From Haemophilus pittmaniae (GTDB lineage Bacteria > Pseudomonadota > Gammaproteobacteria > Enterobacterales > Pasteurellaceae), in NCBI RefSeq assembly GCF_900186995.1, contig NZ_LT906463.1, positions 1,612,001-1,676,000 of the forward strand: 64,000 nt of DNA, written 5' to 3'. Below, in pieces: positions 4,058 through 58,302 of this stretch. The notes below the pieces were generated by a model. The model saw only the letters and a program-made list of their open reading frames with translations, did not search any database and had not been told where the DNA came from. Numbering within the stretch: position 1 is the first letter of the stretch; each line of letters opens with the position of its first letter. Position numbers and translations under genes: made by a program.

Positions 4058-4133
4058 TTTTTATATCAAGTGTAATAAAATCAATGGGTTATGTGTTATT
4101 TTTGCAAAAACTCTGATTTTTGAAGGGGCGTTT
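4058..4133 (-). repeat. Dispersed intergenic repeat with IHF-like core, copy 1
   Basis: Member of a family of twelve copies in this window. Read on the minus strand it runs from AAACGCCCC through a GTTTTTGCAAAAA palindrome to CCCATTGATTTTATTA. The opposite strand of that core reads AATCAATGGGTTA, a perfect match to the IHF consensus WATCAA-N4-TTR. It begins directly after the thiI stop codon. Its GC-rich end pairs with the next bases to form the terminator at 4123-4148. Confidence 0.85.
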
Positions 4134-4148
4134 CAAACGCCCTTTTTT
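4123..4148 (+). terminator. Intrinsic terminator of thiI
   Basis: Stem GGGGCGT / ACGCCC with a short loop and a run of six T. The upstream arm is the end of the dispersed repeat, so the repeat supplies half the hairpin. Confidence 0.85.
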
Positions 4149-4354
4149 GTTGGGGGGCTGACAATAGCATTTGAATAATGTCTGAAATTATGCCACTCAG
4201 GTCTTGATTTTGGCCTCTTAGGTGAAAGGAGAAATTTCTTTATTTATTTTTCTATATAACCACTTTGTTGTAAATTTCACAAAAGCACTAGGCAATTGCA
4301 TCATTAGCATTGTTATTTTTAGCTTAACTCCTTAGAATCCAAGCAGTTTTTATA

Positions 4355-4478
4355 GCATAACTCCGAGCTTGTTTAGCCTAAGTTTCCTGTATTGGAAATA
4401 TGGCGGCAACGCCAATAACGAAGTTCGTTATTCAGGGATACGTCGGAAACGGTTTATCCTCTCCATTTTTAGAAAGGT
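4355..4478 (+). promoter_or_regulatory. Probable molybdenum-cofactor (Moco) riboswitch leader of moaA
   Basis: The leader of moaA is highly structured. A stem TGGCG/CGCCA closes a GCAA tetraloop (4401-4414), followed by AATAACG/CGTTATT (4414-4432) and a helix closing a GAAA loop (4442-4453); the ribosome site AGAAAGGTG sits just after. The known Moco RNA motif lies in front of moaA operons in gammaproteobacteria and includes a GNRA tetraloop, so position and shape fit. I judged structure by eye, not with a covariance model. The 4150-4350 stretch upstream shows no gene. Confidence 0.6.
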
Positions 4479-4483
4479 GTGAC

Positions 4484-5497
4484 ATGCAATCTATCCCCAT
4501 TAAAAACGTGAACGGGGGACATTTAGTCGATCCGTTTCAACGTCAATACTATTACTTACGGCTGTCGATTACCGATCAGTGTAATTTTCGCTGTAACTAT
4601 TGCCTTCCTGATGGTTATCGTCCTGAAGCGAATAAACCACAGTTTCTAAGCTTAAGTGAAATTGATTATTTAGCGCGTGCATTTGCCGCTATGGGTACGG
4701 AAAAAATCCGTATTACCGGTGGGGAGCCGACCTTACGTAAGGACTTTTTACCGATCGCCGAAACGCTTGCTCAAATCGATGGTATTCGCCAATTGGCTCT
4801 AACGACTAACGGCTATCGTATGGCCAAGGATGTGGCAGCCTGGAAAGCGGCCGGTATTACTTCAATTAATGTTAGCGTGGATAGCTTAGATCCAAAGATG
4901 TTCCATCAAATCACCGGTATTAATAAATTTGATGAGGTGATGCGGGGCATCGATCTAGCTTTTGAAGTCGGCTATCAAAAAGTGAAAGTGAATTCGGTGT
5001 TGATGAAAGATGTTAACGATAGCGAATTTAGTCAATTTTTGGCCTGGATAAAAGACCGTCCAATTCAAATGCGTTTTATCGAATTGATGCAAACGGGCGA
5101 AATGGATGGGTTCTTCCAACGCCATCATTTATCAGGTCAATTGTTAGCAGATAAACTCCTCGAAAATGGTTGGCAATTGCAGCAAAAATCTCGTACCGAT
5201 GGTCCGGCAAAAGTTTTTCGTCATGCGGATTACCGAGGCGAAATTGGCCTGATTATGCCTTATGAAAAAGATTTCTGCGCTAGTTGTAATCGTCTGCGGG
5301 TGTCAGCAAAGGGTAAATTGCACCTTTGTTTATTTGGTGAGGAAGGCATCGAATTGCGCGATTTATTACAATCAGCCGAACAGCAACCGTTGTTACAGGC
5401 TCGCATTTTTGCGGCTTTACAAGGTAAACGTGAACACCATTATTTGCATCAAGGCGATAGCGGCGTGCGGGCGCATTTAGCATCCATCGGCGGTTAG
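4484..5497 (+). CDS. moaA: GTP 3',8-cyclase (molybdopterin biosynthesis, radical SAM)
   Basis: Radical SAM enzyme that, together with MoaC, converts GTP to cyclic pyranopterin monophosphate. The protein has 337 residues from the ATG at 4484 ([10 protein letters not shown]); the frame is open to 4400, but that stretch belongs to the structured leader. The N-terminal [4Fe-4S] cluster is held by C33, C37 and C40 (CNFRCNYC). The C-terminal cluster uses [18 protein letters not shown], and the chain ends in the family double glycine. It is the first gene of moaA-moaC-moaD-moaE; a Moco riboswitch probably controls it. Confidence 0.97.
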
Positions 5498-5579
5498 TAT
5501 TTCCCATTGCGGCATTTGCCGCTTTTTCTTTTCCATTGACGCCGCTTGGCGCAAGATAAAAAAACGATCAGATAAACTT

Positions 5580-6074
5580 ATGACTACATTTACCCATATC
5601 AATGCTCAAGGCGAAGCCAATATGGTGGACGTCTCCATGAAAGCGGACAGCGTACGCGAAGCGCGTGCGGAAGCATTTGTCACAATGTCACAAAATACTT
5701 TAGCAATGATTGTCGAAGGACGTCATCACAAAGGTGATGTTTTTGCTACCGCGCGTATTGCCGGCATTCAAGCGGCTAAACGAACTTGGGAATTGATCCC
5801 TTTATGCCATCCTTTATTGTTGTCCAAGGTTGAGGTAAATCTTGAGGCGTTACCACAGACCAATCAGGTACGCATAGAGTCCCTATGCAAATTAACCGGT
5901 AAAACCGGAGTGGAAATGGAAGCCTTAACCGCGGCATCCGTAGCAGCATTAACAATTTACGATATGTGTAAAGCAGTACAAAAAGACATTGTGATTGAAG
6001 GGGTTCGCTTATTAGAAAAAAGCGGTGGTAAATCTGGTCATTTTGTTGCCGATAAACAGGGAGTTGGCGCATGA
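5580..6074 (+). CDS. moaC: Cyclic pyranopterin monophosphate synthase
   Basis: Completes the MoaA reaction, giving cyclic pyranopterin monophosphate. It has 164 residues, close to the usual ~160. Family signatures are [12 protein letters not shown] near residues 76-87 and the [20 protein letters not shown] stretch near 111-130. It lies 82 bp after moaA and overlaps moaD by four bases (ATGA), so translation is probably coupled. Confidence 0.97.
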
Positions 6075-6316
6075 TTAAAGTATTATTTTTCGCTCAAACC
6101 CGAGAATTATTAGGTCGTGATGAAATTACTGTGGAACCTTCTTTCAACAATGTGGAAGAATTACGTGCGCATTTGGCCGCACAGAATGAACGTTGGGCGT
6201 TGGCCTTACAAAAGGATAAATTGTTGGTTGCCGTCAATCAAACGCTGGTATCTTTGGATAGCCCATTAAGTGATGCTGATGAAGTCGCTTTTTTCCCACC
6301 GGTGACCGGAGGCTAA
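6071..6316 (+). CDS. moaD: Molybdopterin synthase sulfur carrier subunit
   Basis: Ubiquitin-like small subunit of molybdopterin synthase; its C-terminal glycine is thiocarboxylated and donates sulfur. It has 81 residues and ends PPVTGG, the required double glycine. It overlaps moaC by ATGA and is followed with no gap by moaE, its partner subunit. Confidence 0.96.
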
Positions 6317-11934: not shown

Positions 11935-12012
11935 ATAAAACGCCTCCTTGATTTTCAGAGTTTCTCTAAAAATAATGCGTAAGTCATTGATTTTATTATT
12001 GTTGGTTGAAAA
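11935..12012 (+). repeat. Dispersed intergenic repeat with IHF-like core, copy 2
   Basis: Runs from TAAAACGCCTCC through GAGTTTCTCTAAAAAT to AAGTCATTGATTTTATTA and GTTGGTTGAAAA. The complementary core is AATCAATGACTTA, a perfect IHF consensus. It lies between the lipoprotein stop and the QseB-type operator of ygiW, about 125 bp from the ygiW start. Confidence 0.85.
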
Positions 12013-12041
12013 GTATAAAATATTTTAAAAATTTATGGTTG

Positions 12042-12057
12042 CTTAAGAAATACTTAA
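12042..12057 (+). promoter_or_regulatory. Putative QseB operator (CTTAA-N6-CTTAA)
   Basis: A perfect direct repeat CTTAA-gaaata-CTTAA lies about 80 bp upstream of ygiW. The same arrangement is known as the QseB-binding element controlling ygiW-qseBC in Aggregatibacter actinomycetemcomitans, so autoregulation by the QseB encoded just downstream is likely. Confidence 0.75.
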
Positions 12058-12137
12058 GATTTTGTGTGTTTAATAGCTCCCAACAAAGCAATGAAGCAAC
12101 AAGCTTTGTTTAATTGATGATTTAATTTTAGGAGAAC

Positions 12138-15999: not shown

Positions 16000-16124
16000 A
16001 AAAATTATTCTTACTCTTAGCTTTATCCGCTTTAGTCAGCGGTTGTTCGGTGGGCGTTGGTGCCTCCGGTGGTAGCAACGGCATCGGAGCAGGCATTGGT
16101 ATTGGTACGGGGATTGGCTTTTAA
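15996..16124 (+). CDS. Small glycine-rich lipoprotein (42 residues)
   Basis: A 42-residue reading frame whose start overlaps the preceding stop codon by ATGA. It begins MKKLFLLLALSALVSGC, a textbook lipoprotein signal with the lipidated cysteine at residue 17. The mature peptide is only about 26 residues, almost all glycine, isoleucine, serine and alanine (GIGAGIGIGTGIGF). A coupled start, a perfect lipobox and a ribosome site (AAAAGGAAAA) make it believable. Its TAA is the first base triplet of a dispersed repeat. Function unknown. Confidence 0.75.
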   Translation: MKKLFLLLALSALVSGCSVGVGASGGSNGIGAGIGIGTGIGF

Positions 16125-16198
16125 AACGCCCCCTGATATTTTTGCGTTTTCCTAAAAATGGATGCTAAGTCATTGATTTTATTAGGGGTAGTTTGAAA
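16121..16198 (+). repeat. Dispersed intergenic repeat with IHF-like core, copy 3
   Basis: Starts at the stop codon of the 42-residue lipoprotein (TTTTAAAACGCCCCC), continues through GCGTTTTCCTAAAAAT, and has the core AAGTCATTGATTTTATTA followed by GGGGTAGTTTGAAAA. Complementary IHF match AATCAATGACTTA. The metY promoter region begins just beyond it. Confidence 0.85.
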
Positions 16199-16287
16199 AT
16201 GAAAAATGCGCTTTATTTTGCGGTTTTTTCTCAAAAAAAGCCTTGCATTTTTGATTTAGATCACTATAATACGCGCCATATTTCGGA

Positions 16288-16364
16288 CGCGGGGTGGAGC
16301 AGCTTGGTAGCTCGTCGGGCTCATAACCCGAAGGCCGTCGGTTCAAATCCGGCCCCCGCAACCA
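16288..16364 (+). tRNA. metY: tRNA-fMet (CAT), initiator
   Basis: A 77-base tRNA with encoded CCA. The sequence is nearly that of E. coli initiator tRNA: unpaired first base C against A, three G-C pairs GGG/CCC in the anticodon stem (CGTCGGG-CTCATAA-CCCGAAG) and anticodon CAT. It stands before rimP-nusA-infB exactly as metY does in E. coli. Confidence 0.98.
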
Positions 16365-16382
16365 ATACAAGTTCAGTGAAAG

Positions 16383-16404
16383 AACCCCAATTTGGGGTTT
16401 TTTT
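16383..16404 (+). terminator. Terminator 1 after tRNA-fMet
   Basis: Stem AACCCCA/TGGGGTT with a short loop and a run of seven T, 19 bases after the tRNA. It would limit read-through from metY into rimP. Confidence 0.8.
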
Positions 16405-16427
16405 ATACAAGAAAATCAATAAAACTG

Positions 16428-16460
16428 GGCTTAGGTTTTTTTTAAAACCTAGCCTTTTTT
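16428..16460 (+). terminator. Terminator-like hairpin 2 between metY and rimP
   Basis: Stem GGCTTAGGTTTT / AAAACCTAGCC with one bulged base, followed by seven T. Second tandem barrier before rimP. Confidence 0.65.
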
Positions 16461-16513
16461 TATGCCTGAAATTTGCCTTTGGCATTTTGGGCGAATCGTT
16501 TGGGAGGTCAATT

Positions 16514-16969
16514 TTGGCAACATTGGAACAGAAATTACAGGATATGCTACAAGGCGCGGTAGAAGATGCCGGCTGCCAATTGTGGGGCATTGAATGTCAA
16601 CGCAGCGGTCGTTTTATGACGGTGCGTATTTTTATCGATAAGGATGGCGGAGTTACCGTAGATGATTGTGCCGACGTGAGCCGCGATGTGAGCGCCATTT
16701 TGGACGTCGAAGATCCGATTGCCGATAAATACAATCTGGAAGTGTCTTCGCCGGGATTGGATCGTCCGCTATTTACTTTAGCGCAATATGCCCGCTATAT
16801 CGGCGAAACAATTAACGTGCATTTGCGTATTCCGGTGGCCGATCGCCGCAAATGGCAAGGCAAATTGGAGAAAATCGACAATGATATGCTGACCCTATTA
16901 GTGGATGATAAAGAGCAGGTGTTGGTATTTGGCAATATTCAAAAAGGCAACTTGGTTGCTAAATTTTAA
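16514..16969 (+). CDS. rimP: Ribosome maturation factor RimP
   Basis: Assists 30S subunit assembly. The start is a TTG at 16514 ([10 protein letters not shown]), preceded by the strong ribosome site GGGAGG at 16502-16507; it gives 151 residues, matching the E. coli length of 150. The frame is open back to 16193, but that stretch crosses the tRNA gene. Conserved segments include [20 protein letters not shown] and [15 protein letters not shown]. First protein gene of rimP-nusA-infB-rbfA-truB. Confidence 0.93.
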
Positions 16970-40408: not shown

Positions 40409-40487
40409 TAAAAACGCCCTATCAATTTTCATAGTTTTCTATAAAAATCATTGTAACTCATTGATTTTATTAGAAGTGTTTAAAAAA
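40409..40487 (+). repeat. Dispersed intergenic repeat with IHF-like core, copy 8
   Basis: TAAAAACGCCCTATC, then ATAGTTTTCTATAAAAAT, core AACTCATTGATTTTATTA and AGTGTTTAAAAAA. Complementary IHF match AATCAATGAGTTA. Lies between two minus-strand genes, upstream of DUF4198 and downstream of uspE. Confidence 0.85.
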
Positions 40488-42858: not shown

Positions 42859-43095
42859 ATGAAAAAAATATTTGTTTTTCTTATTTTATGCGGCTTAATT
42901 CCAGTAGTAGGGATGACTGAAAGTGCTTGTGATGACGGTAAACGGACTTGCAAAGATATGGACAATTGTGCCGATGCGCGTTTTCATTTAGAGCAGTGTG
43001 GTATGGATAAACTTGATCGAGATAAGGATGGCATTCCTTGCGAAAGTATTTGTGGTAGTGGAAAAAAAAAGATAACTTTTAAACTCCATCAATAA
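42859..43095 (+). CDS. Small secreted excalibur-domain protein
   Basis: Protein of 78 residues with a signal peptide of about 20 residues and an excalibur calcium-binding domain: several cysteines, and the DxDxDG-like loop DRDKDGIPCESIC near 53-65, the family hallmark. The mature form should be periplasmic or secreted and disulfide-bonded. The C-terminal codons and stop (KLHQ*) come from a dispersed repeat, which may have trimmed or extended the original end. Confidence 0.82.
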   Translation: MKKIFVFLILCGLIPVVGMTESACDDGKRTCKDMDNCADARFHLEQCGMDKLDRDKDGIPCESICGSGKKKITFKLHQ

Positions 43096-43146
43096 AATCA
43101 ATGAGTTTTGTAATGTTTTTTTGAAAAACCTTACCAAACAAGGGGA
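43074..43146 (-). repeat. Dispersed intergenic repeat, copy 9, slightly degenerate
   Basis: TTTTAAACTCCATCAATAAA on the plus strand is the GTTTAAAAA end; the core AATCAATGAGTTT fits the IHF consensus except the last base. The other end is eroded (CAAGGGGAT instead of GGGGCGTTT). Contains the stop codon of the excalibur gene. Confidence 0.75.
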
Positions 43147-43167
43147 TATTTATAGACAAATTAACAA

Positions 43168-43207: not shown

Positions 43208-43702
43208 TTATGCGTTAGCTAAATTACCTAAATCTTTGTCGACAAGGAATAAACCTTTACCGTCTTCACCAAGAAGATTTAATTTATCTAAAATACTACT
43301 GAATAATTTCTCTTCCTCATGCTGTTCTGCAACATACCATTGTAAGAAATTAAAGGCAGAGTAGTCTTTCTCTTCAAAAGTTTTGCCCACCAATTCATTG
43401 ATTTTGCTTGTAATCAATTTTTCATGTTTATAAGTAATTTCTACGATTTCTTTTAATGATTTGTAATCATGAGGAGGAGCATCGATAGCAGAAATAACCG
43501 CTAAAGCTCCGGTTTCATTTAAATAAGTAAATAATTTACGCATGTGTTGCATTTCTTCTGCTGCATGAGCAGATAAGAATTTAGCAGCACCTTCAAAACC
43601 ATTTTGTTCGCACCATGCACTCATTTGCAAGTAAAGGTTTGAAGAATAGAACTCAAGGTTCATTTGATCATTTAATAGTTTGATTACGTTGTTTGATAAC
43701 AT
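43208..43702 (-). CDS. ftnA: Non-heme ferritin, second of a tandem pair
   Basis: Bacterial iron-storage ferritin of 164 residues. Ferroxidase ligands are visible in [13 protein letters not shown] (Glu near 17), AAEEMQHM (Glu and His near 49-53) and later Glu residues in [12 protein letters not shown]. It follows a close paralogue with 16 bases between, as in H. influenzae, where the two subunits are adjacent. Iron control is expected but no convincing operator was found. Confidence 0.95.
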
Positions 43703-43718
43703 TTTATTGCTCCTAAAA

Positions 43719-44213
43719 TTATTCTACGTCCAATGTGGCAAGGTCACGATCGATAAAGTATAGGGAAGTACCACTTTCACCTAAAATAGTAAATTTATCG
43801 ATGATGCTATTGAAGAGTTTTTCTTCTTCATGTTGTTCAGCAACATACCATTGTAGGAAGTTAAAAGTAGAATAGTCTTTCTCAGCAAAAGTGGCTTCAA
43901 CTAATTCATTGATTTTAGATGTTACCAACTTTTCGTGGGCCATTGTTGTTTCAAATACTTCTTTAAGAGATTTGTAATCATGTTTTGGTGCATCAATTTT
44001 ACCTAAAAGTGGCATACCGCTAGTTTCACTAACATAAGTAAATAATTTCTGCATATGTTGCATTTCTTCATCTGCATGACGCAATAAGAATGCAGCAGCA
44101 CCTTCATAACCGTGTTTGGAACACCAAGAACTCATTTGTAAATATACATTAGAAGAGTAGAACTCAAGATTGATCTGCTCATTTAATTTGTCGGTAATTG
44201 CTTGACTCAGCAT
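43719..44213 (-). CDS. ftnA: Non-heme ferritin, first of a tandem pair
   Basis: Paralogue of the next gene, also 164 residues, sharing [18 protein letters not shown] and [14 protein letters not shown] blocks, with the ferroxidase residues conserved. The two subunits probably co-assemble into mixed shells. It begins the transcript, with AGGAG ahead of the ATG at 44213. The DNA upstream is a 783-base AT-rich gap. Confidence 0.95.
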
Positions 44214-44996: not shown

Positions 44997-46418
44997 TTAA
45001 GATAACAGTTTTGCACCGTATTCATAAACCTGTTGCAATAAATTCAGTTTAGTTGGATTATCCGAATGTTCCTCAGCTAACCGTTGTAAACTTTCTTCAA
45101 AATTAATCGCACTTTGCTCTAATTTACGTTGACGATATTTTTGCCATTTGATTTGCTCAGCACGATTTAAGGTTTTGTAGAAATGTCTTGCACGATAATG
45201 GAACAACAATTCAGGAATCCGTTTATCTTCAAATGCTAAACCATGTTCAGCTAATTTCTCGGCCGGTAAATCCCGTAAAATAGCCATATTGTTTTTATCC
45301 GCATTGCTAAAGAAACCGTTATAAAGCTCAGTTTCTACATTATCACTCGATCCAAATTCGCGCTCCTCTGCGAAAATTTCAATGACTTTCTCGCGAACAT
45401 CTAAGGATTGACGCAATTTTGCTAAATTATCTAAGCAATATTGCCGGTCAATGCCTAAACGAGCTGCATTTTCCGGCAGTAAAGTTTTTGCAGGAGCTAA
45501 AATGGGACATTTATTAATATGAACCAACTTTAATGGAACTGATGAAACTCCCCTTTCTTCTAGCTTACTTTTCTTGGTATATAAATCTTGTCGTAAATCA
45601 ACCGCACTTTTGCAGAGCAAGTTATCAATATCACCTGATAAATCGCAGACAATTACAGCATTCTGATTGGTTGGATGCCATGCTAATGGTGCAACCCAGG
45701 CACAGTTACCACGATAATTGCCTAGCATGCCTGAAACATGCACTAATGGCGTCATTTCAGCGGTATCAATCAGTTTCTCAACTTCCCTTTTGCCTCTGTG
45801 TTCTAAGAAGAATTGAAATAATTTAGGCTGCTTTTCTTTGATTAATTTAGCCATGGCGATGGTTGCATACACATCCGCCATTGCATCATGGGCATTTTCA
45901 TGCTCAATGCCATTAGCTTTAGTGAGTTTTTCTAAGCGGAAACTTGGCATTCCATCATCGTCATAGGCCCAATTAATTCCTTCTGGGCGTAACGCATAAC
46001 AGGCCCGTACTACATCGAGTAAATCCCACCGAGAATTGCCATTTTTCCAGCTATATTCATAGGGATCAATGAAATTACGATAAAAGGTATAACGAGTCAT
46101 TTCATCGTCATAACGAATATTGTTATAACCCATCACACAAGTATTAGGTTGTGAAAACTCAGCTAAAATTTTTGCGGCAAATTCAGGTTCAGAAATCCCC
46201 TTTTCATTACATTCTTGTGGCGTGATTCCTGTAACCATTACGGCTTCTGGAGCGGGTAAATAATCATTGGTTTGCTTACAATACAACATAATAGGCTCAC
46301 CAATAATATTGAAATCTGCATCGGTACGAATACCAGCAAATTGAGCTGGACGATCACTTGCTGGATTGATACCAAAACTTTCGTAATCGTAGATAAAAAA
46401 ACTAAAATCTGTTGCCAT
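44997..46418 (-). CDS. sbcB: Exodeoxyribonuclease I
   Basis: Single-strand 3'-5' exonuclease of the DEDDh superfamily, acting in recombination and mismatch repair. It has 473 residues. D11 and E13 (IYDYESFG) form motif I, NIRYDDEMTRY is motif II, and HDAMADVYAT motif III; the C-terminal SH3-like and helical parts follow. Two bases downstream of a membrane-permease gene; probably in one operon with it. Confidence 0.95.
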   Translation of the reverse strand: MATDFSFFIYDYESFGINPASDRPAQFAGIRTDADFNIIGEPIMLYCKQTNDYLPAPEAVMVTGITPQECNEKGISEPEFAAKILAEFSQPNTCVMGYNNIRYDDEMTRYTFYRNFIDPYEYSWKNGNSRWDLLDVVRACYALRPEGINWAYDDDGMPSFRLEKLTKANGIEHENAHDAMADVYATIAMAKLIKEKQPKLFQFFLEHRGKREVEKLIDTAEMTPLVHVSGMLGNYRGNCAWVAPLAWHPTNQNAVIVCDLSGDIDNLLCKSAVDLRQDLYTKKSKLEERGVSSVPLKLVHINKCPILAPAKTLLPENAARLGIDRQYCLDNLAKLRQSLDVREKVIEIFAEEREFGSSDNVETELYNGFFSNADKNNMAILRDLPAEKLAEHGLAFEDKRIPELLFHYRARHFYKTLNRAEQIKWQKYRQRKLEQSAINFEESLQRLAEEHSDNPTKLNLLQQVYEYGAKLLS

Positions 46419-46420
46419 AA

Positions 46421-47293
46421 TTAAGCCAAAATTTTATCTAAATAATATAAACAGAAAATTGCTGAAAGGCTAATAAGAACACCAAACCAGTTGATTTTGC
46501 TGATTTTTTCTTTGAAGAAAAATGCGCCGGTGATGGTGCCTAAACAAATAACACCAATATTCATTCCCGCAAAAACTAAGGTTGGGTTTTGCCCGAAACT
46601 TTGGTGCGCTTTAATATAAAAAAGGATGTTAAAGAAATTCAACACACCTAAAATGATTCCACCAATAAAGCTTGGCACAGTCCATTGAGTGCGTTTTAGG
46701 AATAAATACAAGAACATGACACAAGCGGCTAATGAGAAAGCAATGAATAATGTGGTTGGGAATGCTCCTCCGCTTTTGGCCACTTGTTTGAATAAGATAT
46801 CAATGGTGCCATAACCAAACCAAACACCGATTAAGCCTAAAATACCTTTAAAAGTGACCGCACTTTGTTCATTTGATTTATTCAAAATACAGAATAAACC
46901 GATGAATGCCAAAATAATGCCAACAATTTTAGGCTGACTTAATGTTTCATGGAAAATAATAAAAGAGGCAACAATCGGTAGAAATAACGATAAGCGTTGT
47001 GCAGCATCAGAACGCACGATGCCAGCAAATTCAACCGCTTTAGACATAATGATAAATACGGTTGGTAATAAAATACCTAACGCCAGGAAAATAGGTGTGC
47101 TATCACTTTGTGCTAAATATTCGGTAAATTCTAATCCTTTGAAATCAGGTTTGAGTAAGAAATAGCTTAATGAAATGGCGACAATATAGTTAAACGCAAT
47201 TGCTTGTTCAATAATGATATTTTTCTTGCGCGCAACTTTGAGTAACACCGATACGGCAACACTACATAGAATTGCAAAAATAAGGTTATGCAT
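46421..47293 (-). CDS. EamA/DMT-family permease
   Basis: Membrane protein of 290 residues with about ten hydrophobic helices in two repeats, the layout of the drug/metabolite transporter superfamily. Typical elements are PIVASFIIFHETLSQPKIVGIILAFIG at the end of repeat one and TITGAFFFKEKIS in repeat two, here the EamA glutamate. Substrate unknown. Packed between a nuclease-like gene (four bases) and sbcB (two bases). Confidence 0.85.
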   Translation of the reverse strand: MHNLIFAILCSVAVSVLLKVARKKNIIIEQAIAFNYIVAISLSYFLLKPDFKGLEFTEYLAQSDSTPIFLALGILLPTVFIIMSKAVEFAGIVRSDAAQRLSLFLPIVASFIIFHETLSQPKIVGIILAFIGLFCILNKSNEQSAVTFKGILGLIGVWFGYGTIDILFKQVAKSGGAFPTTLFIAFSLAACVMFLYLFLKRTQWTVPSFIGGIILGVLNFFNILFYIKAHQSFGQNPTLVFAGMNIGVICLGTITGAFFFKEKISKINWFGVLISLSAIFCLYYLDKILA

Positions 47294-47297
47294 AATT

Positions 47298-48209
47298 TTA
47301 ATCCTTAATTGCTTGTTTAATTAAACTCATTATATATTCAAGATATTGAGTACTATCAGTAGAAATTTCATAATCACCATTTCCCCAATGTCCTGTATCT
47401 TCTACATTCTTAGCTAGTTTCTTCGGATCATCTAATTCACTATAAGGAAGATTAATCCATAGTTTTAAAGCCTTTTTCTGAATTCCGATATCCACAATAT
47501 TTCTATCTTTTTTAAAAGCGATATAGCGTTTTCTAGGTACAACCTCAATATTAGGCTCTAAATTTAAAATTGCCTGTTTGTAGGTTTCATATAATTCTTG
47601 TATAAAATCAGGTTTATCATTCAAATGATCATCTTCTTGGTAAACTTTAATTTCTTTTAGTGTAGAAAGTTCTTTTGTTTCTTCAGTTGTGACTGTCTTA
47701 ATATTGGGCGCTGATTTAGATTTATTGATAAGATTTACAGTTATAATTTCATTATCAAAGCAATTTACTTCCCATAATTCAATTGGTAAATCTTTAAAAT
47801 TTGTTGCTTGGATTTGGAAATCATTAAATGATGGAGAAACAAAAACCACTTTAGATTGAGACCAATCTATATCACTTCTTTTTAATGGCTTACTTTGATT
47901 TTCATTATACTCAATGAGAAAATCAGCTTTATATTCAAGCATTAAATTAAGATAAGAAATCCCCTGATCTACCACACTAGAGTTTTGCTGTCTTTTATAT
48001 TCAATGATCACAAACGCTTTAGCTTCAGGATCAAATGCTAAGGTATCTATACGTGAGTTTTTAATAGAAAATTCAGATCGAATGAAAATATATCCTGTCA
48101 ACAGAGATAAGTTATGCTCAAATAAATTTTGTATATTTTTTTCTAACTTAAACTTTCCTTGTTTAAGCTGAGTAAGAATCCCTTTTTGAGATGTAAAAAT
48201 TTTCATCAT
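47298..48209 (-). CDS. PD-(D/E)XK-like nuclease domain protein with DUF5655
   Basis: Protein of 303 residues. The N-terminal half contains RIDTLAFDPEAKAFVIIEYKR (near residues 52-72), matching the D-(X)n-ExK active site of restriction-type/NucS-like nucleases. The C-terminal ~120 residues, from DFIQELYETYKQAI, look like DUF5655, a domain often attached to such nucleases and thought to bind DNA. Role unknown: repair or defence. It is downstream of mukB and heads an apparent operon with the DMT permease and sbcB. Confidence 0.72.
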   Translation of the reverse strand: MMKIFTSQKGILTQLKQGKFKLEKNIQNLFEHNLSLLTGYIFIRSEFSIKNSRIDTLAFDPEAKAFVIIEYKRQQNSSVVDQGISYLNLMLEYKADFLIEYNENQSKPLKRSDIDWSQSKVVFVSPSFNDFQIQATNFKDLPIELWEVNCFDNEIITVNLINKSKSAPNIKTVTTEETKELSTLKEIKVYQEDDHLNDKPDFIQELYETYKQAILNLEPNIEVVPRKRYIAFKKDRNIVDIGIQKKALKLWINLPYSELDDPKKLAKNVEDTGHWGNGDYEISTDSTQYLEYIMSLIKQAIKD

Positions 48210-48228
48210 TTATTCCTTAAATATTAAA

Positions 48229-48264
48229 ATGCGGTTAAAAGAATTTAAATCTTTAACCGCACTT
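48229..48264 (-). terminator. Terminator of the muk operon, with an uptake signal
   Basis: Arms TGCGGTTAAAAG / CTTTAACCGCA with a short loop; the right arm carries the uptake core ACCGCACTT at 48256-48264. It separates mukB from the nuclease-like gene. Confidence 0.7.
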
Positions 48265-48283
48265 TCTTTACATAATAGTACAA

Positions 48284-51200
48284 CTACTCTGTTGTGCCAA
48301 AGCCACGCAAACCAACCACATGAACGTGTTCTTGGTTGCCGGCGATTTTACGCACCAGTTTATAGGTTGTCCCTTTTTCAGGGCTGATATTCTCTGGCGC
48401 TGCGATAAGTAATTGCATATCCAAACGTTCACAAAGTTCGAACAAGGTGGAAATGGATTTACCATCCAAACGCGCTGCCTCATCTAAGAATAGTAAGCGG
48501 CACGGTACGATGTCTTTGCCGCGAATACGGCGGCTTTCCTCTTCCCAACTTTGTACAACCATTAATAAGATAGACATACCTGTACCGATCGCTTCACCGG
48601 TCGATAATGCGCCACTTTCAGCACGTAACCAACCATCAGCCCCACGGAAAACTTCAACCTCTAGTTCGAGGTAATTACGGTAATCTAATAATTCCTCACC
48701 GATAGTTTGTGCTGTGCGTTGACCCATATCAATATGCGGGTTAATGCGTTGATAAAGTTTCGCAATGGCTTCAGAGAAGGTAATACGGTTATCACTGAAT
48801 AAATCTTGATATTCTTCCTGTTTACCTGACAGCGCATCAAGCAACATCGCATGTGTGTCGCGAATATTGACCACTAAACGTACCGATTTCACCTGACCGA
48901 AGGCAATATTTTGTAGACCTTGGTTCAACATGCGGATACGGTTTTGTTCACGTTGAATGGTTTTACGCATAATATTCGCCACACTTTCAGAACTGATCGC
49001 CAATTTTTTCTCACGGCCAGTCAATTCTTCTGTTAAGCGATTAAGCTCAATCTCCATTTGCTCAATTGCATCAATCGGATCATCAGTTTTAATAATATCC
49101 TGACGAATACGTTCACGAAGATGTTGATATACAGCGATGAAGAAGCGGACTTTATTTTCCGGTTTGCGGCTATCTTCAGAAATACGCAATGCATCGCGTA
49201 GATATTCATTATCAGCCACTGCAGTACGTAGTGCACCTAATGCTTTATCCGACATTGAACGTAGTTCATCAGCAGATAAATAGGCTAACTCACGACGATT
49301 GAGTCGTTTTTCCACATCGGAATTACGAGATAAACGCAGAACCACGCACCAGCTGACTTTCGCTGCCACAACTAATTCACGTTGCGTTTTATAATCACGT
49401 TCCGCTTTGCGAATGCGTTTATTTAAGTTCTCCGCTTCACTTTCAATAAGTGTTAATTGTTTTTCGACATAAGAACGACGTTGACGGCTGGTTGAAAGTT
49501 GTTGATACAACTCATCACGGCGATTTCTTGCACGTTCCTCTGCCCCTTCATCAGCACGTACACCCAACTCACCAATCTCGGCAATTAATTCTTTTAACAA
49601 TTGATTTTTACTGTCGTAAGAACTTTGCAATTGAATAAATACTTGGTTGTATTGTGCGAATTGGCTTTGTTTTTGACGTAACTGTTCACGTTGAGCATCA
49701 CGTTGTGACTGCAATTGTTCCAAACGTTGACGAAGTTGCTCATTAAGCTCTGATGTTTCCGCCTGCCCCGCATCTTCATAACTGAAGTGATTTTTACGTT
49801 GCACCACATCCGCTAAAGCAAATACACGTTGTTGTACTTGTTTTTGACGTTCAACCGCTTGGGTTAAATCAGCTTTTAAGCGTTCATAGTTTTCTGGATC
49901 ACTTTGTAAAGTATTGGCAATCGGCTCTAATTGTGACAACGCAACGCCATGTTGACGAATAAAGCTTTCATCTTGCTCTGCGATGTCTAATTGTTCGCGG
50001 CACTCTTCAATGCGATCAAGTAATTCTTCATCAGAAAGTAAGTTAAGCTGTGGCATTAACTTATTCAACAATTGCATTTTTTCTTTGGCATTATCCAATT
50101 TAATGCGAATTTGTTGTTCAGTGCTGGAGAATTGATTAAGTTCACGCTCAATTTCATTGCGTTCTTGATTGATTTCCGCAATCACCTCTTCTGGGTTTGG
50201 TTGGAACGCTAGAGCTAAATGTAAGCCAACAAATTGACTAAAGTGTTCGTGTAAACGTTGACATTTTTGTACATCAAAGGCGATTTGTGCGTATTCTTCC
50301 GCAATTTCATCACGTTTAGCTTGTAATTCTTCTAAATGTTTTTCACGAGCAGCACGGCCGAATAATGGAATTTGCGGGAATTTTGAATAACGCAATTCAC
50401 GATCAGACACTTGCACCACAACGCCCATTTCAAGCTCTTGGGCTGAAAGTACGCTATCATCAAAGGCATTTGGATCACCTTCGATTAAATATAAATCGTC
50501 CGGACAGTCTTCTAAATTAGCTAATTGTTCGCGTACAGTGTTGAGATCACGTACAACAATAGCATGACGCGCAGGACCATAAAGTGCAGAGAAATAAGGT
50601 GCATCTTCAATTGGTACATCATCATACAATTCGGAAAGCAACACACCACCAAAACGTTCTGCAAGCACATTTAAGCGAGCATCTTCAGAACCATCTGGTT
50701 GGCTTAAACGAGAAATTTGCTCATCTAATTGTTGACGTTGTTTTTCTAAATTGTCACGTTGAATAGTCAGTTCACGTTCTTTCACCAATTGTGATTGCAT
50801 AAAATGCATTACATCTTGGCTATGCTCGAAAGTTTCACCACTTTGCTCTTGTAAACGTTCTAAAGCTGCTTGAGCAGTTAACCAAGCCGGTGCTTTACGG
50901 GCATTTTCTTCGTAAAGTGCTGTTAGATTTTCACGCTTTTGACGCAAAGTTGAACGGTTTTCCACTTGCTCTGCAAGTTCTTCATTCAAACTTTCAATGA
51001 GTTCTTCTTGTTCAGCGTGGTATGCTTCAAGTTCATCAGCGGTTTCTAAAGATAAATCAGCACGTTGATTAAAATCAGCCAATAATTTAACCGCACTTTG
51101 TTGTTGAGCATAACGCTGCTCTAACTCATGTAATTTTGCGCGTAATTGTGGGGTTTGTTGTGCCTGAATTTTTTGTGTTGGATATTCACGCAATAATTCT

Positions 51201-52801
51201 TTAGCACTTTCCCAAGCACTTGAACGTGGCATATCTCCAGCAATTTTGCACACTAACTGATAGGCTTTATCAAATTGTGATTTAGCAGCTTCAGAAATAG
51301 ACATTTTATGCTCTAACTCAAGCACTTGCTCGGTAAGACTTTCTGCATGGGCAGCAAATTCCGCTTGATAATCCTCCGCATTTTTCACGCTTAAATCCGC
51401 TAAACCACATAAGGTTTTCGCTTTTTCAAGTGCGGCAATCGCTTGTTGATATTGCAATGCACGGGTTTGTTGCGCATCTAATGCTTGTTGATAGTCCGCA
51501 AGTTGCGCACGTACTTGGTCAATTTCAAGTTCCGTTTGCTCAAATTGTGCTTGGCTTTCTTCAAGCTGTTCGGTTGCGGTTTCCACAACCATTTTTTGTT
51601 CTTCTAATTTTTCTGTAAGTTCAGCCACATCTTCTTGATAACGCGATACTTTTTCTTGATGACGTAACGCATTTAATACCAAGTTCAGATGATCCGCCGC
51701 ACTTTGGTGATCGACTTCTAAAGTACGTTCATTTTCTGCTAACTCAGCTGCTTCACGGCTTAAATCAATTAGTCTATGTTGCGATAACTCTTGCTCAGCT
51801 TTTGCTTTATACCAATCACGACGGAAACCTAAAGCCGCTTCGATATTGCCACGACGTTCATTGGCATTACGCATATAATCTGATGCCACATAATTAGTGG
51901 TTTCGGTGATTAAATGTTTGAATAAATCACGGTCAGATTGGGTGACTTTAATTGCTTCAAGGGTCATGCGGTTTTCGCGTAACGCACTTTCCATATCTTG
52001 GAAGGCTTTGCGCACACCAAGGTTTTCTGGCAATAAGTAATCACGTAAAGAACGGGTAATGGCGCTGGAAATACCACCGTATAAAGAAGCTTCGATTAAT
52101 TTATAGAATTTACTACGATCTGAGGCGCTACGTAAGCGTTTTGGAATAATACCTAAATCAAACATCATACCGTGATAATCGGTGATGGAATGATATTGCT
52201 TGAATTGCGCACCAAGATTTTCAATTTTGTCTTTTAATTCATTTAAATTGAGTACACGCGCTTGACGTTCACCGACTGTTTCGGTGAAAAGTGTAGTCGG
52301 ATTTAAGGATAATTCTACCCCTTGAATCGAGAACGTTTTTAAATCCACTTTCTTATCACGACCTGCAATTTGTTGCAGACGCACACCCACGAGAATTCGT
52401 TGGTGACGGGAATTGATGGTATCTAATACTGCGTAACAAACGCCCGGACGCAATTTACCGTGTAACCCTTTATCACGCGAACCGCCTGTCGAGCCGGCTT
52501 CTGTGGTATTACGGAAATGCAATAAGGTTAAGTCTGGAATCAACGCTGTCACAAAACCCGCCATGGTTGTTGATTTACCGGCACCGTTACCACCGGAAAG
52601 TGTAGTCACCAATTCATCCAAATCAAAGGTACGGGCAAAGAAACCATTCCAGTTAATTAAGGTGAGTGAACGGAATTTACCGCGTTCTACCCCATTGTGT
52701 TGGTTTAATACAGGAGCAATAAACTCTTCTTCAACCTGTTCGGTTGATTGCTCAGGTTCGTCTTGATAGATTTCATTTTCAAGTTCTAATACATCAGACA
52801 T
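48284..52801 (-). CDS. mukB: Chromosome partition protein MukB
   Basis: SMC-like ATPase of the MukBEF condensin, which folds the chromosome. It has 1505 residues. Walker A GGNGAGKS is at about 70-77; long coiled coils rich in Glu, Gln and Arg flank a hinge near the middle; the C-terminal head has the signature [12 protein letters not shown] and Walker [13 protein letters not shown]. Its start overlaps the mukE stop. The end GLRGFGTTE is shorter than the E. coli tail. Confidence 0.98.
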
Positions 52802-53553
52802 TATTCTTGTTCTCCTGCATCATCAAATTCTTCATCAATTTCGACCGCACTTTCTTCATCATCAAGGTCATCAGCATTGCTTGCCGCTTTTGCTTGTTTT
52901 TCTAATTCGAGAGATTGCGGTGTTGCCGCTTCCCCATCACGAATTAAGCGAGCTTGCGCTTCTAACGGATCATCACCGGAACGCACTTCAGCACCGAAAC
53001 GGAAAACTGATTCTGAAATCGTAAATTTACCGCTATGCTGTTCACCTACGGTATGAATCATACCTAAACGGCGTAAACGACCAATCGCAGCACGCACTTT
53101 TTCAGCTAATTTTTGTTTATCCAAATCCGAGCCACTAGAGCGCTGATTGACGGCTTTCAATAATTTACCTTCGTCCGCTAAATTCAGTAATTCATCATAA
53201 ACTTCTTGTGTGCTGAAAATACCTTGCTGCGCCAAACGTTCCGGACTTAGATACAAATAACAAAGCACTTTCCCAACCAACATTTCTAATTCAGAAAGCA
53301 CTGAACGGGCAATTAAAGTTGTCGCTTTCGGACGTAAATAGAAAAAGCCTTCCGGTGCACGAATTAATTCCACGTTGTAACGGCGGTAAAAGCCATCTAA
53401 CTCATTTTGGAAATCCATCAAAAAAGCATGATTGTCTAATTGATCGGTACTGATATGGCGACCTGAACGTAATAAACTGTCCACTGTCGGGAAAATAGGA
53501 TTCGCAATGGCATTTGCCAATTTCGGGGAAATTACATCTTGCATATCTGTCAT
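52801..53553 (-). CDS. mukE: Chromosome partition protein MukE
   Basis: KITE subunit of MukBEF linking MukF to the MukB heads. It has 250 residues, of which the first ~205 are the conserved winged-helix core (beginning [20 protein letters not shown]) and the rest an acidic tail ([18 protein letters not shown]). It overlaps mukB by one base. Unlike in E. coli, where mukF and mukE are nearly contiguous, 124 bases separate it from mukF and hold a dispersed repeat. Confidence 0.97.
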
Positions 53554-53576
53554 GGTTATTCTCTTTTAAATGTGAC

Positions 53577-53656
53577 GCTAAAACGCCCTATCGATTTTTG
53601 TAAATTTGTCTAAAAACTCACCTAACCAATTGATTTTATTAGCATTGGATTAAAAG
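53577..53656 (+). repeat. Dispersed intergenic repeat, copy 10, inside the muk operon
   Basis: TAAAACGCCCTATC, AAATTTGTCTAAAAAC, core AACCAATTGATTTTATTA, then GCATTGGATTAAAAG. Complementary IHF match AATCAATTGGTTA. Flanked by TTTTAAATGTGAC (53564-53576) and TTTTAAACGTGAC (53661-53673), which differ at one base and could be a target duplication. Confidence 0.85.
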
Positions 53657-53677
53657 TGCATTTTAAACGTGACATTT

Positions 53678-55012
53678 CTAATATTTATCAATCACATGCG
53701 CCTGAACTTCTGCGCCGTGCTCGTTAATTTCCTGCCATTGCGGATAAATGCCGACTAAATCATCATTTGCCATGCCTAAACGCACCGCCTGATCCACAAT
53801 AATTCGGGCTACATCAAAATGACGGGAAAGCGGATAAGCGGCTAACTGTTCTTTTAAGACTAAGCTCAAATCAATTGGGTGATTATTTTCACGGTATTGA
53901 ATCAGCAAGCCTTGCATATGTTCAACGATTTGATCATGTAAATCGGAAAGCGATTCATATTGTAATTCTTCAGGCAATTCTCCCAAGGCATCATCTTCAC
54001 GCAAGACCATTTCCTCATCACGCAAATCGACTAAGCGTTCCGCTTGAGCGGTCCACAAGAACCAAGGATGCTCGAAATAACTGTGAATAGAATTACGTAA
54101 GCGTTGTGAGAATACACGGTTTTTATCCATATCAATGGCGGTACGAATAAATTTATGCACGTGACGGTCATAACCAATCCATAAATCGATAGCTTGTTGT
54201 CCCCAGCTGATAATACGGTCAAGCTTGGATTGTAAATCGGTGATTAATTGTTCAATAAAATACAACTCATCATGGCCAATCACACAATCTTGAATACGTA
54301 ATAATTGTGCCTGTAACTTATCACCTGCGGCATTTAAGGTATCTTGCAATTCGCGTAAATTACCAGAGGTTTCATCTAATAGACGTTCACAGCTGGAAAT
54401 TGCTGCCTGCCAATCTTTGGTAAGTAAATTCGCAATTTCTTCTTTAATACTCTGCTGATTTTCATCCATCACGCGTTGTGATAAATCAATACTATCGAAA
54501 ATCTCTGCCACCGAATATTTTAACGGTGCGAATACATTCCTCCGCCAATAATGCTCGTTCTCTCCTTTTGCCGCACCTTCTTCCGCGGCATCGGATGCGC
54601 GCTGAATTTCATCGGCCACAATAGAAAGTTGTACGGAAAGACGCAACGCGGAAAATTCACGCTGACGAATATAATAATCCGATACACCAACCCCCAACGG
54701 AGTTAAGCGGTAAATGGAAAGTCCTTCGGTAAATTCACTACTGAAACGATTAAGAAAACGCTGTTTTACCAATTCATTGATAGCATTATTGGCCCTGGTG
54801 GCAATTGCATCTGTTGATTGGTCAAAAGCACCGGCGGTATGGCGGAAAATATCCACTAAATCCGCTTCCAGCATTTCACCGTCCAAACGTTCGTTGTTAT
54901 AGATGGCGATTGCCAGCAAAAACACCAAGCGCTCTGTCGGCAGATTTAACGAAAATTCCCGCTCTTTCGCCCATGAGACGAGTTCAGGAATAGTTTGTGA
55001 GGTTTCGATCAT
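53678..55012 (-). CDS. mukF: Chromosome partition protein MukF
   Basis: Kleisin subunit of MukBEF. It has 444 residues from the ATG at 55012 ([19 protein letters not shown]); an in-frame start at 55036 is less likely. N-terminal winged helix and four-helix dimerisation region, a middle helical part ([17 protein letters not shown]) and a C-terminal winged helix. First gene of mukF-mukE-mukB. The smtA (cmoM) methyltransferase gene found upstream in E. coli is absent; a YadA-like gene lies there instead. Confidence 0.97.
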
Positions 55013-55334
55013 TGGCAAGAGGCTAAAATTAAACAAAAAAATTCCGCGGGATTATACAGTATTTTTCTCTAATCCTATAAAGCTTCTTAGAAATTTTCCC
55101 TAAATATGACCTAGGAATAAGCAATAATTGACTACTAATTGAACTAACCTCCGATCTCCCTACAATTAGGTAAAAACAATCGTTGTCTTTAGATGTTAGA
55201 CCTCGTACAATCGAAACGCTTGTGGTTGTCTTACTCTTTTTTTAGTGGTAAGTAAAGCTGTCTTGTTACTTAACAAGGGTATTTCTTTCACTCGTATACA
55301 TCTTGTTCAATCAATTTATAAAGGTAACTCTAAA

Positions 55335-56700: not shown

Positions 56701-56706
56701 GTGTCT

Positions 56707-56787
56707 TATAAACGGCCCTAGCAAAATAAAAGTTTTCATTAAAACAACTGCTAACCCATTGATTTTATTTAAGTTCGTTTAAAAACA
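56707..56787 (+). repeat. Dispersed intergenic repeat with IHF-like core, copy 11
   Basis: TATAAACGGCCC, AAAGTTTTCATTAAAAC, core AACCCATTGATTTTATTT, then AAGTTCGTTTAAAAA. Complementary IHF match AATCAATGGGTTA. Sits between the YadA-like gene terminator and the ttcA promoter. Confidence 0.82.
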
Positions 56788-56888
56788 AGAAATTATCAGT
56801 ATTTTCCAATGAAGAACTAAGAACGGTCTTTTTCCTAATTGAAAAAATTAACGTATAATGCGCCACTTTATGACTCACTCAATTCATT

Positions 56889-57821
56889 ATGTCCGAATTA
56901 ACTCAACAAGAAAAAAAACAAAACTATAACTTCAATAAATTGCAAAAACGCCTACGTCGCAATGTGGGGAATGCCATTGCTGATTTCGGTATGATTGAAG
57001 ATGGCGATAAAGTAATGGTTTGCCTTTCCGGTGGTAAAGACAGCTATACGCTGCTGGATATTTTGCTCAATTTACAACAAAGTGCTCCGATTAAATTTGA
57101 TATCGTGGCAGTCAATCTAGATCAAAAACAACCTGGCTTTCCTGAACATGTTTTGCCGGAATACCTGCAAAGTATTGGTGTCGATTATAAAATTGTCGAA
57201 GAAAATACCTACGGCATCGTTAAAGAAAAAATCCCTGAGGGAAAAACCACCTGCTCGCTCTGCTCTCGTCTGCGTCGCGGTATTTTATATCGAACCGCAA
57301 CGGAGCTTGGCGCGACTAAAATCGCACTTGGTCATCATCGCGATGATATGCTGGCTACCTTATTTCTAAATATGTTCTACGGCGGAAAATTAAAATCTAT
57401 GCCACCCAAATTGATTTCCGACGATGGTAAACAGATTGTGATTCGCCCATTGGCATATTGTAAGGAGAAAGATATTGAGAAATATGCCGTAGCGAAAGCC
57501 TTCCCGATTATCCCTTGTAATCTGTGCGGCTCTCAACCAAATTTACAACGCCAAGTCGTGAAAGATATGCTCAATACCTGGGATCGCCAATATCCTGGAC
57601 GTTTAGAAACTATGTTCAGCGCAATGCAAAACATCACGTTGTCACATTTGTGTGATCCAAAACTCTTTGATTTCAAAGGTATCAAACATGGACAATCATT
57701 GGATGGTATTGAAGGCGATACGGCCTTTGATGAAGAACGCATTGAGCCTATGACATTTGACGATGAAGATGCTGTAGATTATTCCGATAACGAAATGATC
57801 AGCTTTAAAGAAGTGAATTAA
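56889..57821 (+). CDS. ttcA: tRNA 2-thiocytidine(32) synthetase
   Basis: ATP-dependent enzyme that thiolates cytidine 32 of some tRNAs, using a [4Fe-4S] cluster. It has 310 residues. The PP-loop SGGKDS is at 47-52; cluster cysteines are C122 and C125 (CSLC) and one of CNLC near 213. tusE follows after one base, grouping two tRNA-thiolation genes. Confidence 0.97.
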
Positions 57822-57822
57822 T

Positions 57823-58152
57823 ATGATTGATGTGCAAGGTAAACAAATCGAAACGGACACCGCGGGTTATTTACTCAATATTGCCGACTGGAATGAAGAA
57901 GTCGCCAAAGCTATCGCGCAACTGGAAGGCATTGAATTAACCCAAGCGCATTGGGAAGTGATTTATTTTGTGCGCGATTTCTATCAGGAATACAACACAT
58001 CTCCCGCAATTCGAATGCTAGTAAAAGCAATGTCAGAAAAATTAGGTGAGGACAAAGGTAATAGCCGCTATCTACAACGTCTCTTCCCTGATGGCCCAGC
58101 TAAACAGGCAACTAAACTTGCCGGCTTACCGAAACCGGCTAAATGTTTGTAA
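57823..58152 (+). CDS. tusE: Sulfurtransferase TusE (DsrC family)
   Basis: Accepts sulfur from TusBCD and passes it to MnmA for 2-thiouridine in tRNA anticodons. It has 109 residues of the DsrC fold, and the active cysteine is the penultimate residue (AKCL), as in the family. One base separates it from ttcA. Terminator follows. Confidence 0.95.
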
Positions 58153-58159
58153 ACAATAT

Positions 58160-58190
58160 AACCGCGCCAATCAGGCGCGGTTATTTTTTT
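58160..58190 (+). terminator. Intrinsic terminator of ttcA-tusE
   Basis: Perfect 9-bp stem AACCGCGCC/GGCGCGGTT with a five-base loop, then A and seven T. Confidence 0.9.
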
Positions 58191-58223
58191 ACTAAAATCG
58201 TAAGACAACGTTACATTACTCAA

Positions 58224-58302
58224 CTTTTAAAGAAACATTAATAAAATCAACAAGTTACACTTCTTTTTCAAAGAAACTATGATTTTTAATAGGGCGTTTT
58301 AT
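58224..58302 (-). repeat. Dispersed intergenic repeat with IHF-like core, copy 12
   Basis: Plus-strand order is CTTTTAAAGAAACATTAATAAA, IHF core AATCAACAAGTTA, TTTTTCAAAGAAACTATGATTTT, and AGGGCGTTTTA. It lies between tusE and the vWA operon end, within a 307-base gap that otherwise holds terminators on each side. Confidence 0.82.

Follow-up and report, generated by a model that had tools for sequence, protein, structure and literature searches.

A 76-bp intergenic repeat with an IHF-type core and helically phased flanks, dispersed in hundreds of copies in one Haemophilus genome

Short dispersed repeats with sites for integration host factor (IHF) have been described in Escherichia coli and in Neisseria. 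The RIB/RIP elements of E. coli have been characterized, in the accessible sections of PMC2817692, by an IHF sequence between two inverted REP palindromes, and RIBs have been located at the 3' ends of transcription units (Boccard and Prentki, 1993, as cited in the same sections). Correia elements of Neisseria measure 100–155 bp, lack a transposase gene, contain functional IHF sites and account for about 2% of the meningococcal genome, according to the available passages of PMC3898611. The E. coli gyrase motif extends over about 130 bp, with a 36-bp centre, two 47-bp arms and phased G/C, and gyrase cleavage sites are over-represented in BIME-2 repeats (excerpts of PMC6379681); G/C phased at 10–11 bp has been reported for the gyrases of three compared species (excerpts of PMC12324340). 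The uptake signal of the Pasteurellaceae is a 9-bp repeat, as given in the accessible part of PMC1626085. Here we describe a further repeat, found in a window of 64,000 nucleotides (positions 1,612,001–1,676,000) of the single-contig genome of Haemophilus pittmaniae (G000; 2,181,355 bp), which may serve as a curved, IHF-nucleated site. What has been computed directly comprises the number of copies, their common register and core, the phasing of the flanks, the gene context, the restriction to one lineage and the difference between fixed and free columns. An initial annotation of the window had called the family undescribed and, so far as the accessible portions of the open-access literature reach, no description of it has been recognized.

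Copy number, register and core of the repeat

All twelve copies that had been claimed for the window have been recovered at their positions and on their strands (Table 1), at a density of one per 5.3 kb compared with one per 6.7 kb genome-wide. The window contains TTGATTTTATT exactly 12 times, in each case inside a repeat copy, and the 14-mer CATTGATTTTATTA, with at most one mismatch, is found 11 times, where shuffled sequence leads to an expectation of 0.09. The IHF consensus WATCAA-N4-TTR, with an A/T-rich flank, is present in 11 of the 12 copies as the initial annotation had held (the exception being the copy at 43074), and these make up 11 of its 23 occurrences in the window; by this motif match, the repeat core is a putative IHF binding site. 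The assertion that all copies lie between genes has stood for ten of the twelve, while those at 28271–28346 and 34829–34904 overlap the ends of retained open reading frames (ORFs) by 2–18 bp. Some listed ORFs were discarded before this overlap check, including 16193–16969, which spans a tRNA gene and would overlap the copy at 16124–16199 by 7 bp. Dozens to hundreds of intergenic copies in the genome had been named as support for the family, and hundreds, mostly intergenic, have been found. A pattern of 29 fixed bases with up to three mismatches yields 327 copies (181 + 146 on the two strands; reversed control 0), the exact 14-mer core 177 (102 + 75; reversed control 0), a core-free pattern with up to one mismatch 305 (167 + 138; control 1), and tracts plus core with up to one mismatch 316 (173 + 143; control 0).

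For the profile, 175 of the 177 exact-core copies have been stacked with their flanks, ungapped, from the core start (position 0). The conserved columns fall into a single ungapped register of 76 bp, from −47 to +28, in which most fixed columns are kept in 94–100% of copies; small gaps occur in a few copies, e.g., the window copy at 22458. In these 175 copies the register opens with AAACGC at −47 to −42 (90–98% per column), continues with TTTT at −24 to −21 (94–99%), AAAA at −16 to −13 (94–100%) and TAA at −5 to −3 (98–100%), and closes beyond the core with T at +18 (95%) and AAAA at +25 to +28 (85–98%). The element is longer than the earlier estimate of about 75–80 bp, as a phased A/T signal extends to about +75 to +90. 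Columns between the conserved blocks are free or two-valued. At −33 to −31, AAA is present in 93 and TTT in 76 copies (169 of 207; the remainder mostly has other A/T triplets), an interchange which suggests that shape rather than strand counts. As 175 of the 207 profile copies have been chosen by the exact 14-mer, invariance inside 0 to 13 is imposed. Less biased figures come from the 61 listed forward mismatch-free left-block sites (to about 1.3 Mb), 34 of which carry the exact core, and from 20 copies sampled among the other 27, all of which have TTGATT, the left block used here including the TAA half of the IHF consensus. The information content amounts to 83 bits over the 76 bp, with 31 bits in −5 to +13, both values being inflated by the choice of most copies by core, and compares with 13.8 bits needed to specify 305 sites. 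Local tandem duplication of copies occurs, and an array of four copies, 93–94 bp apart, has been observed at G000 1,299,078–1,299,358.

A function at the level of RNA has been rejected. The copies have no Rfam match, 34 aligned copies have neither a consensus fold nor conserved base pairing, and the folding is mostly like that of shuffled sequence: of 13 folds computed for 11 window copies, 11 have z-scores of −0.6 to +1.6, no better than shuffled, the exceptions being 40412–40487 (z −3.4) and 16124–16199 (z −2.0). Secondary-structure prediction, which had been proposed as a check, has revealed no conserved RNA structure. A promoter has been discarded as well, as the −35-like hexamer TTGATT is present but no fitting −10 stands at the usual spacing in the profile, inspected by eye.

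Phased flanks and gene context

Beyond the 76-bp unit the A/T content rises and falls periodically, the best-fitting period at +30 to +90 being 10.75 bp. Taking as the null a jitter of each copy by up to 8 bp (2000 trials), the phasing has been found above all trials at +32 to +92 and at −110 to −50 (p < 1/2000), with p = 0.027 at +92 to +152, and to be insignificant at −170 to −110 (p = 0.22). From about +26 outward the phase does not change, and 176 of 205 copies lie individually within a quarter turn, where half would be expected. At +32 to +64 the signal is no weaker close to a gene, with an amplitude of 0.181 in the 71 copies with a gene within 40 bp and 0.143 in the 53 with none within 110 bp. 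A wedge model places curvature peaks of 32–33 degrees near −32 and +40, as against 21–22 degrees in block-shuffled DNA, and a straight spot at +16. The phased signal beyond the 76 bp suggests a unit that probably comprises 120–130 bp of DNA, curved or wrapped.

As an alternative, the copies might be strong DNA gyrase sites, whose phased arms would wrap around the C-terminal domains of GyrA; gyrase, with IHF as a possible partner, would then remove positive supercoils between convergent genes and downstream of others. The arms of the repeat flank a centre near +5 to +8 and are phased at 10–11 bp on both sides, the downstream arm being strong and the upstream one largely contained in the element, with a weak tail beyond it; convergent gaps are favoured, as shown below. 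However, of the gyrase cleavage preferences −4G/+8C, −2A/+6T and +1G/+4C (excerpts of PMC12324340), the best of the few registers near the centre satisfies 2 of 6, judged by eye on the consensus; this centre fits IHF instead, and the A/T profile is no more than moderately mirror-symmetric (r = 0.48). Hence we place the gyrase explanation on the unlikely side.

Regarding the genes around the copies, 165 of the 175 have been placed, 74 in convergent, 76 in tandem and 15 in divergent gaps, and of the remaining ten, 6 extend more than 15 bp into ORFs and 4 are unplaceable; with respect to tandem genes, both orientations are about equally common (40 vs 36). For the 207 copies the gaps number 76, 76 and 15, respectively (167 in total), and for 400 kb of the congener G004, treated with the same kind of gene finding, 44, 255 and 43 (342 gaps). 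Convergent gaps are thus enriched, with 76/167 vs 44/342, an odds ratio of 5.7 and p = 2e-15. An odds ratio of 9, obtained inside DNA chosen around copies, is inflated because the neighbours of a convergent gap cannot be convergent; with the congener baseline the convergent excess stays, and an apparent avoidance of divergent gaps vanishes. In the window itself, gaps with and without a copy number 4 and 3 (convergent), 4 and 36 (tandem), and 0 and 7 (divergent), with 8 of the 12 copies counted, so that convergent gaps again differ from all others (4/3 vs 4/43, p = 0.006). The copy at 53581 sits inside the operon-like muk cluster. Along the chromosome, exact-core copies are spaced much as random (coefficient of variation 1.09 vs 0.99 ± 0.07), apart from a stretch of 145 kb (465–610 kb) at the skew-inferred origin without exact-core copies (P = 0.0006 for uniform placement), which is a depletion and not a void because four forward-strand left-block copies fall there. 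Replication-strand polarity has been dismissed, no strand bias by replichore being evident by eye in a 100-kb table.

The convergent placement would also suit parts of transcription terminators or 3'-end insulators, in which a hairpin would form between the AAACGCCCC end and the flank upstream of it, and read-through would be stopped by IHF or by the bend. Stems of at least 7 with the left end have been found in 24 of 206 copies, compared with about 11 for swapped partners, and some compensating changes have been noted by eye. Yet 182 of the 206 copies lack such a stem, the 76-bp unit is devoid of conserved RNA structure, and neither the TTTT and AAAA blocks nor the phased arm are needed by this model, which we regard as quite improbable.

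The window copies are compiled in Table 1. As to the surroundings, a Molybdenum cofactor riboswitch (Rfam RF01055) is located at window 4349–4495, about 215 bp from a repeat copy, and two ferritin-type genes stand in tandem at 43208–44213 (repeat spacing 511 bp). The sign of the GC skew switches around the window (G000 1.61–1.68 Mb), which would put the window near the replication terminus. The names mukF, uspE, fnr, ttcA, topA and sbcB have been assigned to genes by eye.

Table 1. Copies of the repeat in the window, with example sub-features (window coordinates)
Feature	Position	Strand	Core or basis
76-bp element, downstream of thiI-type ORF 2590–4056	4058–4133	−	exact core
76-bp element	11938–12013	+	exact core
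76-bp element, upstream of tRNA-Met	16124–16199	+	exact core
Element with C run 4 bp longer, between convergent truB and ORF 22601–24991	22458–22537	+	exact core
76-bp element	25657–25732	+	exact core
76-bp element, overlaps final 2 bp of cytidine deaminase ORF	28271–28346	+	exact core
76-bp element between convergent ORFs; overlaps 33995–34846 by 18 bp and 34903–35799 by 2 bp	34829–34904	−	exact core
76-bp element	40412–40487	+	exact core
Most degenerate window copy, without AAACGC, TTR half of IHF consensus lost; adjoins ferritin pair	43074–43151	−	nhmmer E 6e-5
76-bp element, spacer before mukE (mukF named by synteny only)	53581–53656	+	core AATTGATTTTATTA
76-bp element	56710–56785	+	core CATTGATTTTATTT
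76-bp element	58224–58299	−	core TGTTGATTTTATTA
Example IHF-type core TAA-N4-TTGATTTTATTA, −5 to +13	11980–11998	+	family consensus
Example degenerate downstream arm, +29 to about +75	12014–12060	+	family-wide 10.75-bp A/T phasing, not sequence

Distribution among genomes and age of the copies

A presence in other Pasteurellaceae, for which the initial annotation had proposed a scan, has not been supported: the family is absent from all 10 congeners, and one full-length copy, imported-looking, has been found among 129 other family genomes. Across 140 family genomes including its own, tracts plus core occur 316 times in G000, once in G063 and once, mismatched and likely by chance, in G043, with none in the remaining 137; among 369 genomes of the class, again including its own, the full pattern matches only in G000. 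The exact core is found 0–1 times in the 10 congeners, 0–2 times in 16 genomes of named records (some being the same genomes as congeners), and 0–4 times in 119 relatives, where the reversed control gives 0–2 (single genomes, one strand). A profile search of 110 genomes, in which the best 42 candidates per genome were scored (the own-genome figure is thus at least 42), has given no match in the 10 congeners and, apart from G000, a single full-length match, in G063. Matches in 13 other genomes (E 1e-5 to 9e-4) have been set aside as partial, the six inspected being judged chance by eye.

The G063 copy (G063:C51:36543–36620) has a hisD-type ORF on one side and a hisC-type ORF on the other (names assigned by eye) and adjoins, on the hisC side, a segment of 1.5 kb that is 93% identical to G000; on the basis of this identity, it has most likely been imported from the G000 clade in an apparent transfer between genera. 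Around 1,119,000 in G000, hisD is separated from hisC by an ORF of about 1.2 kb that is absent from G063 and looks like a foreign, A/T-rich gene inserted recently. MukB of G000 is 99% identical to that of three named strains of H. parainfluenzae, and the spacer before mukE that holds the copy at 53581 is without the element in three strains of this species. Identity to H. parainfluenzae strains at 4-fold sites ranges from 0.35 (uspE) to 0.81 (mukB) among the compared genes, which makes G000 a congener and, by that measure, another species. Within the window, mukBEF and a neighbouring ORF (44997–55036) stand at 0.61–0.81 at these sites, uspE, fnr and ttcA at 0.35–0.49, and the higher identity of the muk region suggests past recombination between species.

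Among viral sequences, the IMG/VR contig L293, whose phage is a relative of Pasteurella phage Pmp8, has a full copy at a distance of about 500 bp from the first of its capsid-type ORFs. The pattern TTTT-N4-AAAA-N7-TAA-N3-ATTGATTTTATT is contained in 9 viral contigs, of which two pairs look identical and some have second copies nearby, and the full element is matched in L293 alone (44.9 bits). A pattern that includes the AAACGC end retrieves L293 and one unrelated-looking contig (L305); a third has no match in the viral contigs, and searches of plasmid and phage collections with one copy each as query have given no match. In phage contigs L287, L289, L288, L290 and L294, TAAGTYATTGATTTTATT-like sites have been seen in groups of two or three, in L294 immediately upstream of a recombinase-like ORF (by eye), and perhaps represent IHF sites of attachment regions.

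The age of the copies bears on whether they are remnants of a non-autonomous element resembling miniature inverted-repeat transposable elements (MITEs), which would have spread early on this branch, with IHF once serving the transposase, and would have no host function. Copies must derive from copying, the element is missing before mukE in the three H. parainfluenzae strains, its presence differs between G000 and the apparent donor of the G063 his segment, and the phage contig has a full copy close to a capsid-type gene. Against this stand the relations among the copies themselves. The mean pair identity of the 207 copies is 0.69, and for copies more than 2 kb apart the nearest-neighbour identity has a median of 0.83 and a maximum of 0.93, compared with column-shuffled copies, whose median is 0.80 and whose maxima average 0.87 and never exceed 0.91. 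The spread of pair identities (0.066 vs 0.044 shuffled), which is partly due to local couplings and a few degenerate copies, leaves room for a weak genealogical signal; mutual information is largest between adjacent columns, and the listed far pairs do not exceed 0.14 bits. Young, near-identical dispersed copies have not been found, the closest distant pair (0.93) lying in paralogous ORFs and the next reaching 0.91. That closest pair, at G000 423344 and 2002329, sits in long predicted ORFs that are 82% identical, a rare intragenic case.

No clear target duplication or flanking inverted repeat has been recognized over 206 copies, although old copies could have lost these, and the consensus has no terminal inverted repeat by eye. 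The suggestion of a miniature element made in the initial annotation has thus found support neither in recent near-identical copies nor in flank repeats, bearing in mind that old target duplications would have decayed. A composite transposon has been rejected: among the proteins near copies, compared with each other, the largest family has 13 members at 33% mean identity, so that no large near-identical family stands beside the copies, with the limit that no genome-wide transposase search was made. In an empty-site comparison, 10 of the 207 copies could be placed in the 400 kb of G004 and five spacers have been compared; all five orthologous spacers look unrelated to those of G000, leaving insertion ends unreadable, and two hold AAGTGCGGT and one a variant of it. 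Spacers so dissimilar between species imply time enough for free positions to saturate, and the free columns are indeed near saturation while fixed ones are mostly kept at 94–100%. This combination of little genealogy and fixed columns points to a site-like constraint and not to a recent transposon burst, suggesting purifying selection on the repeat pattern. Since phased flanks outside the element are likewise at odds with MITE remnants, we consider that origin rather unlikely.

A further peculiarity of this genome is the loss of its uptake signals. G000 contains 205 occurrences of AAGTGCGGT (control 36), compared with 1276–1481 in each of the 10 congeners, a loss of about 85%, while a ComEC/Rec2-type domain is present in a stop-free frame in all 11 genomes. 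Accordingly, the repeat could be a new self-DNA mark for natural transformation that replaces the lost signal. When the 207 copies are masked in 565 kb of G000 DNA, the residual uptake signal continues to rank first among 9- and 10-mers, and no other 9- or 10-mer reaches its score. Spaced A/T tracts also occur in uptake signals; however, to our knowledge no known uptake signal approaches the length of the repeat. Only about 330 copies exist, and simple decay after a change in competence explains the loss, making a self-DNA mark highly improbable. Loss of the signal and gain of the repeat family may be unrelated.

Proposed role and comparison with known systems

Bending or wrapping at the level of DNA fits best, because an IHF-type core, strand-indifferent tracts, phased arms, lack of RNA structure, and orientation-blind, convergent placement occur together. 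With moderate confidence, we propose a curved site, nucleated by IHF, that would serve to fold the nucleoid or to control supercoiling, i.e., a DNA-architecture site that would be maintained by the host. IHF would bind the near-invariant core (TAA-N4-TTGATT plus TTATTA) and produce a sharp turn, which two intrinsically curved arms of about 45–50 bp on each side, with helically phased A/T tracts, would extend. About 120–130 bp might thereby be wrapped or lie in the terminal loop of an interwound supercoil. Such sites, above all those between convergent genes, could pin or absorb transcription-made supercoils and help to fold the nucleoid, a role parallel to that suggested for E. coli REP/BIME elements with IHF sites. 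Binding of IHF to the core, wrapping of the arms and an effect on supercoiling or folding are what we infer from these features, and the link to nucleoid and supercoiling drawn in the initial annotation appears plausible. More tentatively, and with distinctly less confidence, one may postulate a nucleosome-positioning-like, IHF-nucleated wrapping unit of ~120–130 bp that a single species acquired and placed at more than 300 sites, with a preference for convergent gaps, and that selection kept as a chromosome-wide landmark of supercoiling or folding.

Several observations weigh against such an architectural role. If the DNA is straight, the two arms differ by about half a turn in phase across the core, and at +64 to +96 the phasing is weaker near a gene (0.052 vs 0.089). 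The curvature values depend on the wedge-model table that was used, and the gene calls on a crude, simple gene finder made for this analysis. Divergent gaps are not significantly avoided (15/167 vs 43/342 in G004, p = 0.30). The conserved stretch far exceeds an IHF site, so that other proteins or past copying must be involved, and the congeners live without the element.

How bacterial chromosomes place bends and supercoils by sequence is an open question, for which the known cases are few or degenerate. Hundreds of patterned, positionally fixed sites, without counterparts in the closest sampled relatives, constitute a natural experiment, in which expression, supercoiling and nucleoid contacts can be compared with and without the sites. 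The uptake-signal loss in the same genome raises the question of genome-wide motif turnover.

Among described systems, RIB/RIP (BIME-1) of E. coli shares with the repeat a dispersed, intergenic occurrence and an IHF site, but has inverted REP palindromes where the repeat is a single conserved block of 76 bp with phased arms. Within 250 bp of the 207 copies the REP head of H. influenzae, GTAGGGTGGG, has not been found, and the palindromic unit of REP/RAYT systems is missing, given the lack of consensus pairing in the 34 aligned copies. With no flanking inverted repeats and left-end hairpins in a minority only, the repeat falls outside the RIB/RIP group. Correia elements are likewise short and have an IHF site, which in the repeat is a motif match only; they differ in their 26-bp terminal inverted repeats, absent by eye from the consensus of 175 copies. 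The TA target site duplication of Correia elements has not been seen over the 206 copies, though old ones could have lost it. BIME-2 and the strong gyrase site of phage Mu have in common with the repeat a helically phased composition over about 130 bp (accessible part of PMC6379681), but BIME-2 consists of REPs, whereas the repeat has a sequence-fixed 76-bp core with the IHF consensus and departs from the gyrase cleavage preferences. Finally, the uptake signal sequences of the Pasteurellaceae share high copy number and a fixed core with the repeat, yet are 9 bp long with 1276–1481 copies per congener, whereas the repeat extends over 76 bp and is present in about 330 copies.

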